Assembly: GCA_947494995.1 (NCBI GenBank)
Contig: CANLWY010000001.1
Location: 744,001-808,000, forward strand
Length of the DNA: 64,000 nt
Direction: 5' to 3'
Source: an uncultured Campylobacterales bacterium
GTDB taxonomy: Bacteria; Campylobacterota; Campylobacteria; Campylobacterales; Arcobacteraceae
Position numbers and translations under genes: made by a program. Of this stretch, positions 1-28,805 are shown piece by piece (positions within the stretch are counted from its first letter, which is position 1; each line of letters starts with the position of its first letter). Under the pieces are notes generated by a model, which saw nothing but the letters and a program-made list of their open reading frames with translations, did not search any database and was not told where the DNA came from.

Positions 1-365
1 TCAACTCCTGCAGTTTCTAACATATCAGCAACTAACTTAGCAGAGATTGGTACTCTTGGAGCTGCTTTTCTATCTTGTCTTGCATATCCAAAATAAGGCA
101 TTACTGCTGAGATTGATGCAGCACTTGATCTTTTTAGTGCATCTACCATAATAAGTAATTCCATTAAGTGATCATTTGTTGGAGCACATGTAGGTTGAAC
201 AATGAATACATCTTGTCCCCTAACACTTTCGTGAACTTGAACAGAGATTTCTCCATCGCTAAACTTTTGAATTGTTGCTCCACCTACTGACATATTTAGG
301 TATTTTGCAACTTTTTCAGCAAATTCAGGGTTAGCAGTACCACTAAAAAGCTTAAATTTTGCCAT
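1..365 (-). CDS. prs: Ribose-phosphate pyrophosphokinase (PRPP synthase), 3' part beyond the window
   Basis: Makes PRPP from ribose 5-phosphate and ATP, for nucleotide, histidine and tryptophan synthesis in the cytoplasm. The minus-strand reading begins [15 protein letters not shown] and continues with [38 protein letters not shown] and [12 protein letters not shown], all hallmark PRPP synthase segments. About 121 N-terminal codons are visible; the gene runs off the left edge. The ATG at 365-363 is preceded by a good AAGGA ribosome site (ACACAAGGAAAACCAA just upstream). That site is also complementary to part of the predicted small RNAs near 62.4 kb (see findings). Confidence 0.95.
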
Positions 366-451
366 TTGGTTTTCCTTGTGTGATTGTGTATAATTTTGGG
401 ATTTTATCCAATTATTACTTATACACAATTTAGAGGAATCATTATAAAATA

Positions 452-1495
452 TTATTTAGTCTTTTTTATCCAACCACTACCTAGAACTTTTTCATCTTTG
501 TAAAATACTGCAAGTTGCCCTGCTGCAACTCCAAACGCAGGTTCTTTTAGAATTATATAAGCTTTATTATTATTTTCAATTTTTACATGACAATTAGATG
601 ACATTGCTCGATATCTAAGCTTAACAGTACAGTCAAACTCTTTTTCATCAATGAACATGTTTAAATTTTCTACTTCAACTTCATTTATTTCCAAGGCTTC
701 TTTTTGTCCAACTACAATAGTATTATCTTTTGGATTCAATTTAGTTACAAAATGTGGAACATGTGCTCCATGAACTGTAAAACCTCTTCTTTTACCAATT
801 GTATAGTGCATATAACCTTTATGATCACCAATTACATTTCCATCTTTATCAAGAACTTTTCCTGGTATATCAATATTTGCATGTTTTTTGATTACATCAG
901 TATAAACTGTATCTACAAAACAGATTTCTTGTGACTCATTTTTTTCTGTAATCCTTTTATAGGCAATATCAAGTTTTGCACCAAATTTTACAATGTCCTC
1001 TTTTTTTCTTTCACTTAATGGAAACATCATAAAAGGAAGTGCCTCTGGACTTACTTGAGATAGAAAATAGCTTTGGTCTTTTGATTTGTCATCTGCTTCA
1101 AAAATAAAATTACCATCAGTTTTTGCGTAATGACCTGTTGCTAAAAAGTTTGCATTATGCTTTTTTGCAAACTCTAACATTTTTCCAAATTTAATTTGTT
1201 TATTACATTTAACACATGGGTTTGGAGTAACACCTTCTAAATATGAATTAACAAAGTAATCATATACTTCATCTGTAAATTCATCTGCAAGGTCTAAGAC
1301 ATGATATTTAATATCTAAAAATTTTGTAACATTTTCAATATGTCCAAGATTTGATTCGTGGTATCCGTCAGTTCTATTATGAAGCTTTAGATAAACACCT
1401 TCTACTTCATAGCCTTCTTCTTTTAGCATATATGCAGTTACTGAGGAGTCGATTCCTCCACTCATGCCTACCATTACTTTTTTTTTGTTATTCAA
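452..1495 (-). CDS. mnmA: tRNA-specific 2-thiouridylase MnmA, epsilon-type copy
   Basis: Installs the 2-thio group on wobble uridine-34 of Lys, Glu and Gln tRNAs. The 347-residue protein has the PP-loop GMSGGIDSS (residues 10-18), the ATGHYAK motif near 119, SKDQSYFL near 138, and two reactive-cysteine candidates: TPNPCVKC (C94/C97) and SQEICFVD (C192). The CVKC form and overall sequence resemble the single MnmA of Campylobacter rather than the E. coli form. The start is TTG at 1495, chosen because AAGGAT lies six bases upstream and the N-terminus ([13 protein letters not shown]) then matches the other copy. It lies downstream of a decayed folK end, separated from a second mnmA. Confidence 0.9.
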
Positions 1496-1500
1496 TTTAT

Positions 1501-1630
1501 ATCCTTTTTAAAGGAATAAGCATTGACTCTCTGTTTGCCCAATCTTTATATTAGTATTGATTGTTTTATTATCAAAAAAGATTATATTTAGGTTTTAGGC
1601 GTATCTTGAAAGGATAGCTTTTTTCCGTAT
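1501..1630 (-). pseudogene. Decayed duplicate of the 3' end of folK
   Basis: This gap between the two mnmA genes aligns on the minus strand with the last ~50 codons of the intact folK at 2787-3278. The reading starts KKLSFQDTPKT, matching KRSFQDAPRT of FolK, then meets stops and frameshifts. DNA similarity continues to the end: AAAGGAATAA, TTGCCCAATCTTT, ATCAAAAAA and TTCTAGGC/TTTTAGGC-type blocks keep their order, and both copies end in AAAGGATA-AAT just before an mnmA start. It is non-coding now but supplies the ribosome site of the downstream mnmA. It marks a duplication or recombination event at this locus. Confidence 0.85.
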
Positions 1631-1638
1631 TTAGTTCC

Positions 1639-1669
1639 AATCTTTACAAAAGTTCATTTTGTAAAGATT
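1639..1669 (-). terminator. Perfect 13-bp hairpin downstream of second mnmA
   Basis: AATCTTTACAAAA, loop GTTCA, then the exact reverse complement. It lies 24 bases after the mnmA stop at 1693. No U-tract follows on the minus strand, so it may be an RNA end or stability hairpin rather than a classical intrinsic terminator. Confidence 0.5.
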
Positions 1670-1692
1670 AGTATAAAGGAGATTATATCATA

Positions 1693-2790
1693 TTAATAAT
1701 AATTACTTATGAAACCACCACCTAAGCAGTAGTCACCCTCATATAAAACAAGGCTTTGTCCTAAAGTTACAGCTCTTTGAGGTTTATCAAATTTAACTAG
1801 AACTTTATCTTCATTTACTTCTATAACTGTACAAGCTTGTTTTTGTTGTCTATATCTTACTTGTGCCATTAGCTTGTCTCCAACTTTTGGATCCTCTTCT
1901 AGTACCCAATGCATGTGAGAAGCTTCAGTGTGTTCACTCATAAGTAATGGATGATTTGTATCTTGCACAACTGTTAGTGTATTATCTTCAATATTTTTTT
2001 TAGCTGCATACCATGCTTTGTGAGTATGGTTTTCACTTTCAAGCTCTTTGATACCACCAAGACCAATACCTTTTCTTTGACCTAATGTGTAACAAATAAG
2101 ACCTTTGTGCTTTCCTAAAACTTTTCCATTTTCATCAATCATATCACCTGGAATTGCTTTTAGGTGTTGAGTAATAAAATCATCAAATCTTTGATTTCCA
2201 ATAAAACAAATACCAGTACTATCCTTTTTATCACTTACAGGTAAGTTATGCTCTCTTGCAATTTCTCTAACTTCTGTTTTAGTTAAATCTCCAAGTGGGA
2301 ACATTGCATGAGATAATTGTTCACTTGATAGTGCATGTAAAAAATAACTTTGGTCTTTTGAACTATCTTTTGGAGTATCTAGTACAAAATGGTCTTTATG
2401 CTTAGCTATTTTTGCATAATGACCCATAGCAATGTAGTCAGCACCCATCTCTTTTGCTTCATTTAAAAATACGTTAAATTTAATTTCTCTATTACATAAG
2501 ATATCAGGGTTTGGAGTAAGTCCTTTTTTTAGACCTTCTAAGAATACATCAAATACTTTATTTCTGTAATCTGCAACGAAGTCTTTACCTTTTACCTCTA
2601 TTCCTATAAGTTCTCCAACTTTTTTTGCATCTTCAAACTCTATTCTATTAGGACATTGGCTTCCTTTGATTCCATACTCCCAATTTCGCATGAATAATCC
2701 TACTACTTCATAGCCTTGTTGTTTTAATAATAATGCAGTAACAGAAGAGTCAACACCTCCTGACATTCCAACAACTACTTTTTTCTTCAT
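1693..2790 (-). CDS. mnmA: tRNA-specific 2-thiouridylase MnmA, canonical copy
   Basis: A second MnmA, 365 residues, of the widespread (E. coli-like) type. It has PP-loop GMSGGVDSS (8-16), GLFMRNWE (31-38), TPNPDILCN with C99, SKDQSYFLH near 144 and STGICFIG with C195, so both catalytic cysteines are in place. The C-terminal VRYRQQKQAC and PQRAVTLGQSLVLY segments are those of the MnmA substrate domain. It overlaps the upstream folK by four bases and is probably translationally coupled to it. Sequence differs strongly from the neighbouring mnmA at 452-1495, so the two are old paralogs or one was acquired. Confidence 0.92.
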   Translation of the reverse strand: MKKKVVVGMSGGVDSSVTALLLKQQGYEVVGLFMRNWEYGIKGSQCPNRIEFEDAKKVGELIGIEVKGKDFVADYRNKVFDVFLEGLKKGLTPNPDILCNREIKFNVFLNEAKEMGADYIAMGHYAKIAKHKDHFVLDTPKDSSKDQSYFLHALSSEQLSHAMFPLGDLTKTEVREIAREHNLPVSDKKDSTGICFIGNQRFDDFITQHLKAIPGDMIDENGKVLGKHKGLICYTLGQRKGIGLGGIKELESENHTHKAWYAAKKNIEDNTLTVVQDTNHPLLMSEHTEASHMHWVLEEDPKVGDKLMAQVRYRQQKQACTVIEVNEDKVLVKFDKPQRAVTLGQSLVLYEGDYCLGGGFISNYY

Positions 2791-3278
2791 CTATTTATCC
2801 TTTTCATCTCTTCTAAAGGAATAATCACTGATTCTCTATTGGCCCAATCTTTGTGAGGAACTATAAGGTCCTTCGTATTTATTTTTTTCTTATCAAAAAA
2901 TATTATATCTATATCTAGAGTTCTAGGCGCATCTTGAAAGGATCGCTTTCTTCCAAATCTTTTCTCTAACCTCTGCATATTTTTTAAAAATTCATTAGGG
3001 GCTAGATTGGTTTTAAGCGCGATTATACCATTTAAAAAGTCATTTTGTTCCAAGTAACCAAAAGGGGGATTTAAAAGTAGAGGGGAAGTCATAAGTAAAT
3101 CAAATCTTTGGTCTTTTTTTAAACATAATAAAAGTTTATCAAAAATTCTTTTTGTATTTCCAATATTTCCCCCAATCCCTATAGTTACAAGGTATTTTTT
3201 ATTTGAAATAGATTTAAACTTTTTAGGAAAATTTGATGTATAAAAAAGCGTTAAATCCTTAGTTAAGTTTTTTTTCAT
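2787..3278 (-). CDS. folK: 2-amino-4-hydroxy-6-hydroxymethyldihydropteridine pyrophosphokinase
   Basis: HPPK transfers pyrophosphate from ATP to 6-hydroxymethyl-dihydropterin in folate synthesis. The 163-residue protein has the GIGGNIGNT motif near residue 34, the LLNPPFGYLEQNDFLNGI segment, the LEKRFGRKR arginine loop and the metal/ATP signature APRTLDIDIIFFD near 117-129. The ~28 extra residues before the HPPK fold are typical of Campylobacterota. It is followed, with a four-base overlap, by mnmA. A truncated, decayed copy of its 3' end lies at 1501-1630. Confidence 0.92.
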   Translation of the reverse strand: MKKNLTKDLTLFYTSNFPKKFKSISNKKYLVTIGIGGNIGNTKRIFDKLLLCLKKDQRFDLLMTSPLLLNPPFGYLEQNDFLNGIIALKTNLAPNEFLKNMQRLEKRFGRKRSFQDAPRTLDIDIIFFDKKKINTKDLIVPHKDWANRESVIIPLEEMKRINR

Positions 3279-3341
3279 ATTTCTTCTTTAAAAAATAAAC
3301 TTATTAAATAAGTCAAGATTAATTTAGCCAAAATTTTAATT

Positions 3342-4367
3342 TTATAGTATTATTGCTTTACCATTTTTCATTACAACAGTATCTTCAATCCTTACTCCAA
3401 ATTCATCAGGAAGATAAATACCAGGTTCAATTGTAAATACCATATTATTTTCAATTATTACATCTGATTTCGAGTTAATATTTGGAAATTCATGAATATC
3501 AAGCCCTACACCATGTCCTGTACTATGAACAAAAAATTTCCCATAACCAGCTTTGTCTATTACATCTCTAGTAAGTTTGTCAATATCAGAAGCTTTCATA
3601 CCCACTCTTGCTTTTTCTATTGCATTTAATTGAGCTTTATAAACAAGGTCATATATTTTTTGATGCTTTTTATTTTTAAATTTTTGTTCTCTTTTAAAGC
3701 TAAACTTCTCAAAGTCAACATGTGAGGTACAAGTTCTATCAGAACAGTATCTTTTGTATTTAACCCCTGCATCAACTAATAGTAAATCATGAAGTTTTAA
3801 CTTTTTAGATGTAGGTAAGGCATGTGGTTTTGCTGCATTTGCATTAATAGCAACTATAGGATCAAAACTTAAATCATATTTTCCAATTTGTGACATTTTT
3901 TCTATAGCTTTAAAGTGAAGAAAGTTTTCACTCTCTTTAAAGCCATTTTTTCTAATATATCTTGCAAGTTCTTTAAAGCCTTTTTTTCCAATTTTTGCTG
4001 CTTTTTTTAAAATTTCAACTTCTTCATCTGTTTTAATTATTCTTTTTAATTTTGAAAAGTTTTCTTTAGGCTCAAATTTTATTTTTAAATCATTTGTTAG
4101 TTTTTGATAGAAGTTAAGTTTAAAATCATTTGGATCAAATATAATCTTTTTAATTTTATTTTTTTTAAGTATTTTTTGAACATCTTTTATAAAATCTGAA
4201 CTCTCTATTATTTCACAACTTTTTGCATACTCTTGTGCTTCTATAGTATATCTAGCATCAGTAATAAAATATTTTGAAGAACCAAGATTTAAAAAAACTA
4301 CATTGTCACATGAGAAGCCACATTCATAATAGACAGCATTTTCATTTAATAATATATAGTTTTTCAT
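3342..4367 (-). CDS. M24-family metallopeptidase (Xaa-Pro aminopeptidase type)
   Basis: A predicted cytoplasmic dipeptidase/aminopeptidase cleaving next to proline. The 341-residue protein has a poorly conserved N-terminal third (creatinase-like) and a pita-bread domain with the five metal ligands visible: DAG and SDRT aspartates (LLVDAGVKYKRYCSDRT), the HGVGLDIHE histidine, the FTIEPGIYL glutamate and GVRIEDTVV glutamate. The gene is monocistronic-looking, divergent from aroQ, with only 67 bases between the two starts. PepQ or PepP cannot be separated by eye. Confidence 0.88.
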   Translation of the reverse strand: MKNYILLNENAVYYECGFSCDNVVFLNLGSSKYFITDARYTIEAQEYAKSCEIIESSDFIKDVQKILKKNKIKKIIFDPNDFKLNFYQKLTNDLKIKFEPKENFSKLKRIIKTDEEVEILKKAAKIGKKGFKELARYIRKNGFKESENFLHFKAIEKMSQIGKYDLSFDPIVAINANAAKPHALPTSKKLKLHDLLLVDAGVKYKRYCSDRTCTSHVDFEKFSFKREQKFKNKKHQKIYDLVYKAQLNAIEKARVGMKASDIDKLTRDVIDKAGYGKFFVHSTGHGVGLDIHEFPNINSKSDVIIENNMVFTIEPGIYLPDEFGVRIEDTVVMKNGKAIIL

Positions 4368-4434
4368 TCTTTTCCCTTTTTTAACTAAAATTTGAATATA
4401 ATCTTACCCAAAATTTATAAAAGGAAAATATAAA

Positions 4435-4911
4435 ATGAAAATTGCAGTAATTCAAGGTCCAAACTTAAATATGTTAGGTATTAGAGAACAACATATTTAT
4501 GGTCCAATGTCACTAGATCAAATCCATGAGCAAATGAAAGCAAGTGCAGAGCAAAATGGAGTTGAACTAGAGTTCTTTCAATCAAACCTAGAGGGTGAAA
4601 TTGTAGATAGAATTCAAGAATCTTTAGGTACAGTTGATGGAATTTTAATTAATCCAGCAGCATTTTCTCATACATCAATTGCTATTAAAGATGCACTAAG
4701 TGCAGTAAATTTACCAACAGTAGAAGTTCACATTTCTAATATCTATAAAAGAGAAGAGTTTAGACAAAAATCAATTACTGCAGCTTCAGCAGCTGGTGTA
4801 ATTACTGGTTTTGGTCCTTTTGGATACCATATGGGACTAATGGCATTAACTCAAATTATTTCTGAAGTTAAAGCAGTTGAAGCTCAACAACAAGCACAAG
4901 CTGCTGAATAA
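4435..4911 (+). CDS. aroQ: 3-dehydroquinate dehydratase, type II
   Basis: Converts 3-dehydroquinate to 3-dehydroshikimate in the shikimate pathway. The 158 residues include [17 protein letters not shown] with catalytic Tyr22, [16 protein letters not shown] and [14 protein letters not shown], all type II signatures. A short Ala/Gln-rich tail (QQQAQAAE) extends the usual end. An AAGGAAAA ribosome site lies before the ATG. It heads a compact plus-strand run with the amidohydrolase and sppA, an order remembered from Campylobacter (Cj0066-Cj0068). Confidence 0.95.
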
Positions 4912-4922
4912 TATATAATCTA

Positions 4923-6152
4923 ATGAAAATAATTAGTGCATCTTGGGTAATAACTTGTGATGCAAATAGCACTATCATAAAAGATGGTGCTATTGTTTAC
5001 GATAATAAAATTATCGAGGTTGCCACAAAAGAATTTATTCAAGAAACATATGAAAATGTTGAGATTGAAGATTTAGGACAAAATAGTGTTTTGATGCCAG
5101 GACTTATAAACTCTCATGTTCACTTAGAATTCTCTTCAAACACAACTACTTTAAAATATGGTAACTTTATGTCATGGCTAAATTCTGTTATTGCTTCAAG
5201 AGATGAATTAGTTGAAAAAGCAACACAAAAACTAATCTCACAAAAACTTACAAAAATGAAAAAAACAGGTACAACAACTATAGGAGCAATCTCTTCTTAT
5301 GGATTTGATATGACTTCTTGTATACAAACTTCTATTAACACAGTTTTTTTTAGTGAAGTAATAGGAAGTAAACCTGATATGGTTGATACTTTATTTTCCG
5401 ATTTTAAAGCAAGATTAGAAAATGCAAAAAAAAATGCAAGTGAAAGTTTTATTCCTGCAATTGCAATTCATTCACCTTATTCTGTTCATCCCTTTTTATT
5501 AAGAGAAACATTAAAAGTATCACGTGAAGAAAAACTAAGTGTAAGTTCACATTTTTTAGAATCACCAGAAGAGTTTGAATGGCTTCATAAAGATGAAGGT
5601 GGTTTTTTAAATTTCTTTAAAAACTTTTTAGGACAAGAAAAAGCTGTAACAAAACCTATGGAGTTTCTAAATCAATTTACAAATATTGATAATTTATCTT
5701 TAACTCACTGTGTAGAGGCAAGTGATAATGATTTGGATAAAATTAAAGAGTTAGGTGCAGTTGTAAATCATTGCCCTACATCAAATAGATTATTAAATAA
5801 TTCAAAGCTAGCTTTAGATAGGTTGATTCAAAGAGAAATACCTTTTTCAATAGGAACAGATGGATTAAGTTCAAATAATTCTTTGTCAATGTTTGATGAG
5901 TTACGGAATGCATTAATGGTACATGAAAATAGAAATGTACTTGAGTTATCAAATATTTTGATTAAAGCAGCTACAAAGAATGGAAGTGATGCTTTAGGTT
6001 TAAATAAAGGTCAATTAAATAAAGAAAAAGATGCAGATATTATCTGTTTATCATTACCAGATGAGGTAAAAGATGAAAATGACTTATGTATGAATGTTAT
6101 ACTTCATACAAAGTTTGTAGATAGAACAATTATTGGAGGAAAAGATGCTTGA
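4923..6152 (+). CDS. Amidohydrolase of the SsnA/MtaD (COG0402) type, possible aminofutalosine deaminase
   Basis: A 409-residue metal-dependent hydrolase. The zinc site is readable: NSHVHLEFS near residue 63, the AIHSPYSVHP histidine, SSHFLES, LTHCVEAS, NHCPTSNR and the final SIGTDGLSSNN aspartate. Related enzymes in Campylobacterota (e.g. Nitratiruptor Nis0429) have been shown to deaminate 6-amino-6-deoxyfutalosine in menaquinone synthesis. I infer that this is the best guess here, but other purine-like substrates (methylthioadenosine, S-adenosylhomocysteine) are not excluded. It starts 11 bases after aroQ and overlaps sppA. Confidence 0.8.
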   Translation: MKIISASWVITCDANSTIIKDGAIVYDNKIIEVATKEFIQETYENVEIEDLGQNSVLMPGLINSHVHLEFSSNTTTLKYGNFMSWLNSVIASRDELVEKATQKLISQKLTKMKKTGTTTIGAISSYGFDMTSCIQTSINTVFFSEVIGSKPDMVDTLFSDFKARLENAKKNASESFIPAIAIHSPYSVHPFLLRETLKVSREEKLSVSSHFLESPEEFEWLHKDEGGFLNFFKNFLGQEKAVTKPMEFLNQFTNIDNLSLTHCVEASDNDLDKIKELGAVVNHCPTSNRLLNNSKLALDRLIQREIPFSIGTDGLSSNNSLSMFDELRNALMVHENRNVLELSNILIKAATKNGSDALGLNKGQLNKEKDADIICLSLPDEVKDENDLCMNVILHTKFVDRTIIGGKDA

Positions 6153-28009: not shown

Positions 28010-28086
28010 TGGCGCGGATGACGAGACTCGAACTCGCGACCTCCTGCGTGACAGGCAGGCATTCTAACCAACTAAACTACATCCGC
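28010..28086 (-). tRNA. tRNA-Asp (GTC), unit 1
   Basis: Minus strand cloverleaf starting GCGGATGTAGTTTAG, anticodon loop CTGTCAC, acceptor CATCCGC then G and encoded CCA. 77 bases. Identical to the tRNA-Asp at 28404-28480. Confidence 0.97.
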
Positions 28087-28124
28087 ACACTTAAATAAGT
28101 AAGAAGTACTTGTCAAGGTACTAA

Positions 28125-28200
28125 TGGTGGTCGATAGAAGACTCGAACTTCTGACATCTACCTTGTAAGGGTAGCGCTCTACCAACTGAGCTAATCGACC
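28125..28200 (-). tRNA. tRNA-Val (TAC), unit 1
   Basis: Minus strand GGTCGATTAGCTCAG start, anticodon loop CTTACAA, encoded CCA; 76 bases. Two bases separate it from the upstream tRNA-Glu. Confidence 0.97.
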
Positions 28201-28202
28201 GA

Positions 28203-28277
28203 TGGTGACCCCTAGGAGACTCGAACTCCTGTGGCATGGATGAAAACCATGAATCCTAACCGCTAGATGAAGGGGCC
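28203..28277 (-). tRNA. tRNA-Glu (TTC), unit 1
   Basis: Minus strand GGCCCCTTCATCTAG start, anticodon loop TTTTCAT, encoded CCA; 75 bases. Confidence 0.97.
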
Positions 28278-28310
28278 ATCGAAAAAAGATTTTATTTGTT
28301 TATAAAAAAT

Positions 28311-28386
28311 TGGTGACCCGTAATGGATTCGAACCATTGGCCACCTCCTTAAAAGGGAGATGCTCTACCAGCTGAGCTAACAGGTC
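28311..28386 (-). tRNA. tRNA-Lys (TTT), unit 1
   Basis: Minus strand GACCTGTTAGCTCAG start, anticodon loop CTTTTAA, encoded CCA; 76 bases. A substrate of MnmA, as is tRNA-Glu. Confidence 0.97.
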
Positions 28387-28403
28387 AATTGTAAAATAAA
28401 TAG

Positions 28404-28480
28404 TGGCGCGGATGACGAGACTCGAACTCGCGACCTCCTGCGTGACAGGCAGGCATTCTAACCAACTAAACTACATCCGC
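28404..28480 (-). tRNA. tRNA-Asp (GTC), unit 2
   Basis: Identical sequence to the copy at 28010-28086, encoded CCA. 17 bases upstream of tRNA-Lys unit 1. Confidence 0.97.
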
Positions 28481-28520
28481 ACACTAAATATTTAATAAGA
28501 AGTACTTGTCAAGGTACTAA

Positions 28521-28596
28521 TGGTGGTCGATAGAAGACTCGAACTTCTGACATCTACCTTGTAAGGGTAGCGCTCTACCAACTGAGCTAATCGACC
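28521..28596 (-). tRNA. tRNA-Val (TAC), unit 2
   Basis: Identical to the copy at 28125-28200. The spacer to tRNA-Asp also keeps an identical ~24-base stretch containing AGTACTTGTCAAGGTACT, which can fold into a small hairpin. Confidence 0.97.
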
Positions 28597-28599
28597 AAA

Positions 28600-28674
28600 T
28601 GGTGACCCCTAGGAGACTCGAACTCCTGTGGCATGGATGAAAACCATGAATCCTAACCGCTAGATGAAGGGGCC
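28600..28674 (-). tRNA. tRNA-Glu (TTC), unit 2
   Basis: Identical to the copy at 28203-28277, three bases from tRNA-Val. Confidence 0.97.
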
Positions 28675-28729
28675 ACTTGATAAACAAATAAAGTTTTAAA
28701 ATAACACGTAAGTTTTACACTCTTACAAG

Positions 28730-28805
28730 TGGTGACCCGTAATGGATTCGAACCATTGGCCACCTCCTTAAAAGGGAGATGCTCTACCAGCTGAGCTAAC
28801 AGGTC
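28730..28805 (-). tRNA. tRNA-Lys (TTT), unit 2, first gene of the cluster
   Basis: Identical to the copy at 28311-28386. It is the first to be transcribed, about 31 bases after the predicted start site. Confidence 0.97.

Follow-up and report, generated by a model that had tools for sequence, protein, structure and literature searches.

Two genes for tRNA 2-thiouridine synthases, mnmA_B and mnmA_A, stand next to each other in an Arcobacteraceae genome of 3.17 Mb, and the 197 nt that separate them (positions 1692-1496 of the window, the whole stretch of 64,000 nt analysed here) resemble the 3' end of folK, whose intact copy precedes both genes. How did a second folK end come to lie there, and is it a remnant in decay or a part of the locus that still serves the gene behind it? 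The minus strand carries, in order, pepP, folK, mnmA_B, the gap, mnmA_A and prs, and the features that bear on the question are as follows.

3278-2787, minus strand: intact folK (HPPK; TIGR01498 score above cut-off), its 3' half part of a cassette common to the window, G060, G036 and G001
3022-3030, minus strand: extended -10 TGGTATAAT inside folK, codons 83-86, in 75 of 77 core folK genes
2919-2954, minus strand: island 2 inside folK, GGAAGAAAGCGATCCTTTCAAGATGCGCC...AAC, under synonymous constraint and in 70 of 77 core folK genes
2814-2847, minus strand: island 3 inside folK, TTGGGCCAATAGAGAATCAGTGATTATTCCTTTA, with codon constraint at 150-155
1693-2790, minus strand: mnmA_B, acquired D-type (C-DxxC-C) tRNA 2-thiouridine synthase, NF001138 above cut-off
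1496-1692, minus strand: psi-folK, degenerate folK 3' end between mnmA_B and mnmA_A (local score 165, control maximum 79)
1682-1690, minus strand: extended -10 TGATATAAT in psi-folK (TGNTATAAT kept in 17 of 19 copies)
1637-1671, minus strand: P1 hairpin of 15 bp, predicted 5' end of the mnmA_A transcript, z -6.1 in the window
1591-1626, minus strand: island 2 in psi-folK, GGAAAAAAGCTATCCTTTCAAGATACGCCTAAAACC, kept in 19 of 19 copies >100 nt
1509-1542, minus strand: island 3 in psi-folK, TTGGGCAAACAGAGAGTCAATGCTTATTCCTTTA, present in 19 of 19 copies
1501-1506, minus strand: SD AAGGAT of mnmA_A, from the last folK codons, read from the sequence and arranged alike in relatives without mnmA_B
452-1495, minus strand: mnmA_A, native C-type MnmA (CxxC, first CC missing), TTG start at 1495, NF001138 above cut-off

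The degenerate folK end and the two MnmA classes

The reverse complement of 1496-1692 aligns locally with the folK coding sequence at a score of 165, whereas 1,274 windows from elsewhere in the 64 kb average 33 (SD 7, maximum 79), and the two sequences are 84% identical over 190 aligned columns with lenient gaps. Homology sets in at folK codon 83, some 2 nt past the mnmA_B stop, and runs to the mnmA_A SD. An initial annotation of this DNA had seen the kinship with the folK 3' end but confined it to 1501-1630; the kinship stands, and its true extent is 1692-1501. The same annotation had rightly described the gap as full of stops, all three frames of psi-folK being broken and indels abundant, and homology together with a broken reading frame marks the stretch as a pseudogene of folK. 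It had also noted, again correctly, that the gap supplies the ribosome site and TTG start context of mnmA_A, with the SD AAGGAT at 1506-1501 and the TTG at 1495. The start of mnmA_B, for its part, overlaps the folK stop (ATGA).

Both neighbours qualify as MnmA, tRNA 2-thiouridine(34) synthase, by NCBIfam score (434 and 374 bits vs an NF001138 cut-off of 284), by the PP-loop SGGxDSS (here SGG[VI]DSS) and by the catalytic cysteines of the NPxxxC/ICF motifs. MnmA proteins have been divided into C- and D-types (the classes of Shigi, reviewed in PMC11784392), and a C-type without the first CC is named for Campylobacter and Helicobacter (PMC11784392). mnmA_A is alike: CxxC occurs in 87 of 87 mnmA_A genes of the family, with no Cys before it in 77, the window's included. 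mnmA_B has the C-DxxC-C of the D-type, as does E. coli (PMC11784392), DxxC occurring in all 57 mnmA_B of the family and one Cys between PP-loop and NPxxxC in 56 of them. Because mnmA_A has the CxxC form without first CC that is named for Campylobacter and Helicobacter, it is, by its motifs, the native gene of the locus, and mnmA_B is an acquired D-type, for which 298 genomes sampled from the class gave no match beyond the family at E <= 1e-75. The locus differs from the described MnmA classes in that a C-type and an acquired D-type stand side by side and that some relatives have since lost the native C-type. mnmA_A is absent behind mnmA_B in G076, G086, G087, G092 and G097 (loci L094, L095, L088, L100 and L104), and L013:6698-6913 is only a C-terminal remnant of it; the acquired D-type appears able to replace the native gene. 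A further MnmA, 48% identical to mnmA_B, is encoded apart from folK in a remote genus of the family (G045, contig C151:401-1447).

Movement of the folK-mnmA_B cassette

In relatives without mnmA_B, the comparison proposed by the initial annotation, folK runs straight into mnmA_A and its end carries the mnmA_A SD. An intact second folK, which would have spoken for another origin, occurs in none of the relatives; 19 genomes have psi-folK between mnmA_B and mnmA_A, and these scars (all >100 nt) form the sample used below, in which counts are not independent events because the scars share ancestry. Wherever folK and mnmA_B were retrieved on one contig, mnmA_B lies 3' of folK, before mnmA_A or its former place. 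Its distribution is patchy, its presence changing at least 15 times on the rpoB tree, and that of mnmA_A changes 5 times.

The folK gene itself is mosaic. In G001, of genus g2, pepP, the 5' portion of folK and mnmA_A have their nearest counterparts in g2 sisters (88-91%), and the 3' portion of folK shares 93.6% identity with that of the window, 92.1% with G060 and 91.8% with G036, of another genus; in the window, the folK 3' part is in turn about 93% identical to those of G001, G060 and G036, vs about 80-82% for folK 5' and the flanks. From these identities it follows that the folK3'-mnmA_B cassette has passed from one genus to another by way of a crossover within folK. In G001, the folK end that was displaced is 86-89% identical to folK of g2 species without mnmA_B and 83% to its own folK. 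The initial proposal that a folK-mnmA segment recombined in at the folK end, leaving the resident end behind, is thus well supported by the MnmA classes, the gene order without mnmA_B, the patchiness of mnmA_B and the mosaic folK of G001, and the origin of the arrangement is older and more reticulate than one event in the window's genome.

In a tree of folK 3' ends and scars, 16 of the 19 scars fall beside g2 folK ends from genomes without mnmA_B (96% SH-aLRT, with the caution that attraction between long scar branches may play a part), but AU tests on sequences as short as these do not reject a grouping of scar and own folK (p 0.27-0.42). Scars extend up to a near-complete psi-folK in G088 and G089, a size range that either a single crossover or illegitimate joining aided by homology would be expected to give. 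In the longer scars (L096, L093, L031, L082, L086, L042 and L097), hairpins resembling terminators, e.g. CATTGGAGATAG-TTTA-CTATCTCCAATG, occur 15-60 nt past the mnmA_B stop; possibly they are mnmA_B's own 3' flank brought in with the cassette.

Sequences retained in the scars and constrained in folK

The gnTAnaAT-type -10 TGNTATAAT is kept in 17 of 19 scars (those of G030 and G099 do not have it) and in 76 of 77 core folK genes. Its N differs from the G of folK in 14 of the 17 scars, the other 8 letters being invariant, and ten scars, in three genera, open with it 2 nt past the mnmA_B stop. In C. jejuni and H. pylori the sigma70 -10 reads gnTAnaAT (PMC3847290), and internal sigma70 promoters of Campylobacterota likewise have such a -10 inside the upstream gene (PMC3847290); yet between these two species internal promoters show little conservation (PMC3847290), whereas the folK -10 persists in 75 of 77 core folK genes and in 17 of 19 pseudogene copies. 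From its sequence we infer promoter activity for it in both folK and psi-folK. Between the -10 and island 2 sits the P1 hairpin (mean z -3.5 across scars, weak in a few, namely G079, G088 and G089). With the P1 arms of the non-coding scars aligned by hand, five pairs are changed on both sides, and covariation is 0.272 vs 0.126 ± 0.033 after shuffling, a value reached by 0 of 500 shuffles. In many relatives, a different hairpin such as AGTTCT-aaaaa-AGAACT, followed by TTTTT, stands directly 5' of an SD AAAGG upstream of mnmA_B or mnmA_A and resembles an attenuator or SD sequestor; none was seen before mnmA_B in the window.

Downstream of P1, island 2 (GGAANAAAGCNRTCCTTTCAARATNNGYC) occurs in all 19 scars >100 nt, as does island 3 (consensus TTNGGC..AATCAGTGATTATTCCTTTA), with a linker of 14-71 nt between them. 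Retention is selective, at 0.80-0.96 in the islands (0.81-0.96 in island 2) vs 0.42-0.63 in most other scar segments, and the words fossil and scar chosen in the initial annotation do not fit (we keep the latter as a mere label), since the -10, the 5' hairpin and the two islands are under purifying selection in these copies. The element is confined to the folK-mnmA locus in 104 family genomes, in two copies where a scar separates mnmA_B from mnmA_A; no copy was found elsewhere in the genome (a G010 match at E 0.003 is without the block), other families gave only weak folK-coding matches, and Rfam returned no known family at E <= 1 for window positions 1-6000.

Constraint is also visible in intact folK, beneath the protein code. 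Codons 110-121, a 12-codon window in 75 core folK genes, depart from normal codon use by a mean KL of 1.73 bits, as against a mean of 0.28 (SD 0.13, maximum 0.79) in 2,370 windows of pepP, mnmA_A, mnmA_B and rpoB from the same genomes, and rare codons are nearly fixed there (TCC 91% vs 2% expected, GCG 91% vs 3%). Island 3 accompanies island 2, being present in 61 of the 70 core folK genes with island 2 vs 0 of the 7 without. The folK of seven core genomes gave no island 2 match, and because five of these, with mnmA_A and no mnmA_B, are without the islands, the element is not essential everywhere. At folK codon 115 of the core family, Gln is found in 68 of the 70 genes with island 2 and Lys in most of those without it, a bias that the RNA element may have imposed on the protein.

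In the consensus fold, island 3 can pair with island 2 around the variable linker through GCCUAA:UUGGGC and GGAA:UUCC. Of the helices that a structured cis-regulatory RNA would have, P1 covaries; the island helices have pairs that are compatible but nearly invariant, with no double changes, the islands varying too little to reveal compensation, and for the P2 helix 44 of 500 shuffles score as well. The UUCCUUU of island 3 can alternatively pair with the mnmA_A SD, and this predicted alternative suggests a switch at translation initiation. Riboswitch-like and protein-binding leader RNAs are similar in having conserved islands paired around a variable segment beside the SD; unlike them, the present element has no Rfam match, is coded within the upstream gene's coding sequence and is inherited as a pseudogene.

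Readings of the retained element

Because the -10, hairpin and islands are under purifying selection, psi-folK most probably functions as promoter and 5' leader, and because the islands of intact folK are under synonymous constraint, folK would encode promoter and leader in the same bases. We therefore consider it probable, going by sequence comparison, that the folK 3' end acts as promoter and structured leader for mnmA and that psi-folK has kept both for mnmA_A since the cassette entered. Ancestral core Arcobacteraceae would have had folK-mnmA_A with a sigma70 promoter and structured leader hidden in the last 80 folK codons. A D-type mnmA would have entered from outside the family and later spread among species as the folK3'-mnmA_B cassette, by one homologous crossover mid-folK and, on the other side, an illegitimate join or Campbell-type single crossover, the product being mosaic folK, mnmA_B, displaced resident folK end and mnmA_A. 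With mnmA_A reliant on the promoter and leader of the displaced end, only coding capacity would have decayed: the -10, P1, both islands and SD would have been kept, and the sequence between them would have mutated, shrunk or been replaced. There would then be one element copy per mnmA, the intact folK 3' end for mnmA_B and psi-folK for mnmA_A; where psi-folK has been lost, mnmA_A stands within 0-58 nt of mnmA_B and the two presumably share one copy. Transcription would start just past the internal -10 and yield an RNA with a stabilising hairpin at its 5' end and, beside the SD, a domain formed by islands 2 and 3, for post-transcriptional control of mnmA. Sequence comparison itself shows the homology, the mosaicism, the patchiness of the cassette, the selective retention, the synonymous constraint and the covariation of P1; promoter activity, the fold of this domain and a response to some ligand or protein are what we infer, and the leader could imitate the anticodon loop of a tRNA or occlude the ribosome site. 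A bolder version, put forward tentatively and with rather more doubt than belief, is that the element is a structured regulatory RNA of a new class, sensing or bound by the tRNA-thiolation system, that shares its bases with the codons for the final third of the folK protein and outlived the protein code once a foreign mnmA displaced that end, the pseudogene becoming a dedicated promoter-leader with one copy per mnmA class.

Among more specific or competing accounts, the one that survives best, although unlikely, has MnmA itself bind the island domain and regulate its own synthesis by anticodon mimicry, island 2 folding as GCNRUC-CUUUCAA-GAUNNGC with a 7-nt anticodon-like loop. CUUUCAA is close to the loops of this genome's tRNA-Lys (CUUUUAA) and tRNA-Glu (UUUUCAU), though identical to none of the three substrate loops (these two and tRNA-Gln UUUUGGU), and the constrained rare codons AAG-CGA-TCC and GCG-CCT fall on stem and loop, though FolK protein conservation accounts for part of the latter. 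Anticodon-mimic autoregulation has precedents among aminoacyl-tRNA synthetases, E. coli ThrRS and yeast HisRS (PMC6542539), likewise tRNA-acting enzymes with an anticodon-like hairpin in their own mRNA (PMC6542539). The mnmA leader differs from those in being a putative mimic, proposed from resemblance, whose fold competes with others: full-length folds mostly put the same bases in other pairings, and the helix is without significant covariation. Complementarity is no guide to a pairing of the loop with the SD, because CCUUU would match any SD.

Somewhat less credible still is a small RNA acting on targets in trans, whose gene would lie within folK and be copied along with it, instead of an mnmA leader. 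A predicted promoter of its own, the 5' hairpin and CU-rich CCUUU stretches complementary to Shine-Dalgarno sites would suit such a gene, but the copies follow mnmA genes, one per separated mnmA and nowhere else, island 3 continues into the mnmA SD, and a consistent terminator between island 3 and mnmA was not seen.

That psi-folK is a decaying scar whose sole function is to provide the mnmA_A SD seems very improbable: the broken frames, the many indels and the position of that SD in the folK end are as decay would have it, and yet both islands persist in 19 of 19 scars and the -10, drifting at its N alone, in 17, beside neighbouring segments 42-63% retained, and P1 covaries. We give equally little weight to gene conversion or recombination between repeats, instead of selection, as what keeps the scars like folK. 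Direct repeats do flank mnmA_B, mnmA_B is patchy and folK ends recombine across species, but such exchange would restore the linkers too, which are deleted or replaced; many scars have GATACGCC where the folK of the same genome has GATGCGCC, and the islands are equally constrained in one-copy genomes without mnmA_B. Tandem duplication of folK-mnmA with later divergence, despite the order folK-mnmA-(psi)folK-mnmA, has practically nothing left to recommend it, being refuted for the mnmA genes by their class motifs (CxxC vs DxxC), by an identity of about 34% between the MnmA copies, which makes them, as the initial annotation argued in doubting a recent duplication, far more divergent than the folK copies, and by the lack of mnmA_B in the rest of the class sample.

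Read as a promoter and leader for mnmA, the folK 3' end is an instance of dual-use DNA, in which a regulatory element overlapping a coding sequence is revealed by copies that lost the coding and kept the element. Literature searches turned up no account of a second MnmA in Arcobacter, of a promoter inside folK or of mapped start sites in Arcobacter, and no described regulation of s2U34 tRNA thiolation was found in our searches; the leader is a concrete candidate for such control. Across the family, the locus also illustrates how an acquired gene is fitted into a gene order already in place, and it is a natural setting for native C-type MnmA alongside the acquired D-type, either of which has been lost repeatedly. 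Elsewhere in the window, at 28010-28805 on the minus strand, a tRNA cluster Asp-Val-Glu-Lys occurs twice in tandem, with identical tRNA sequences.
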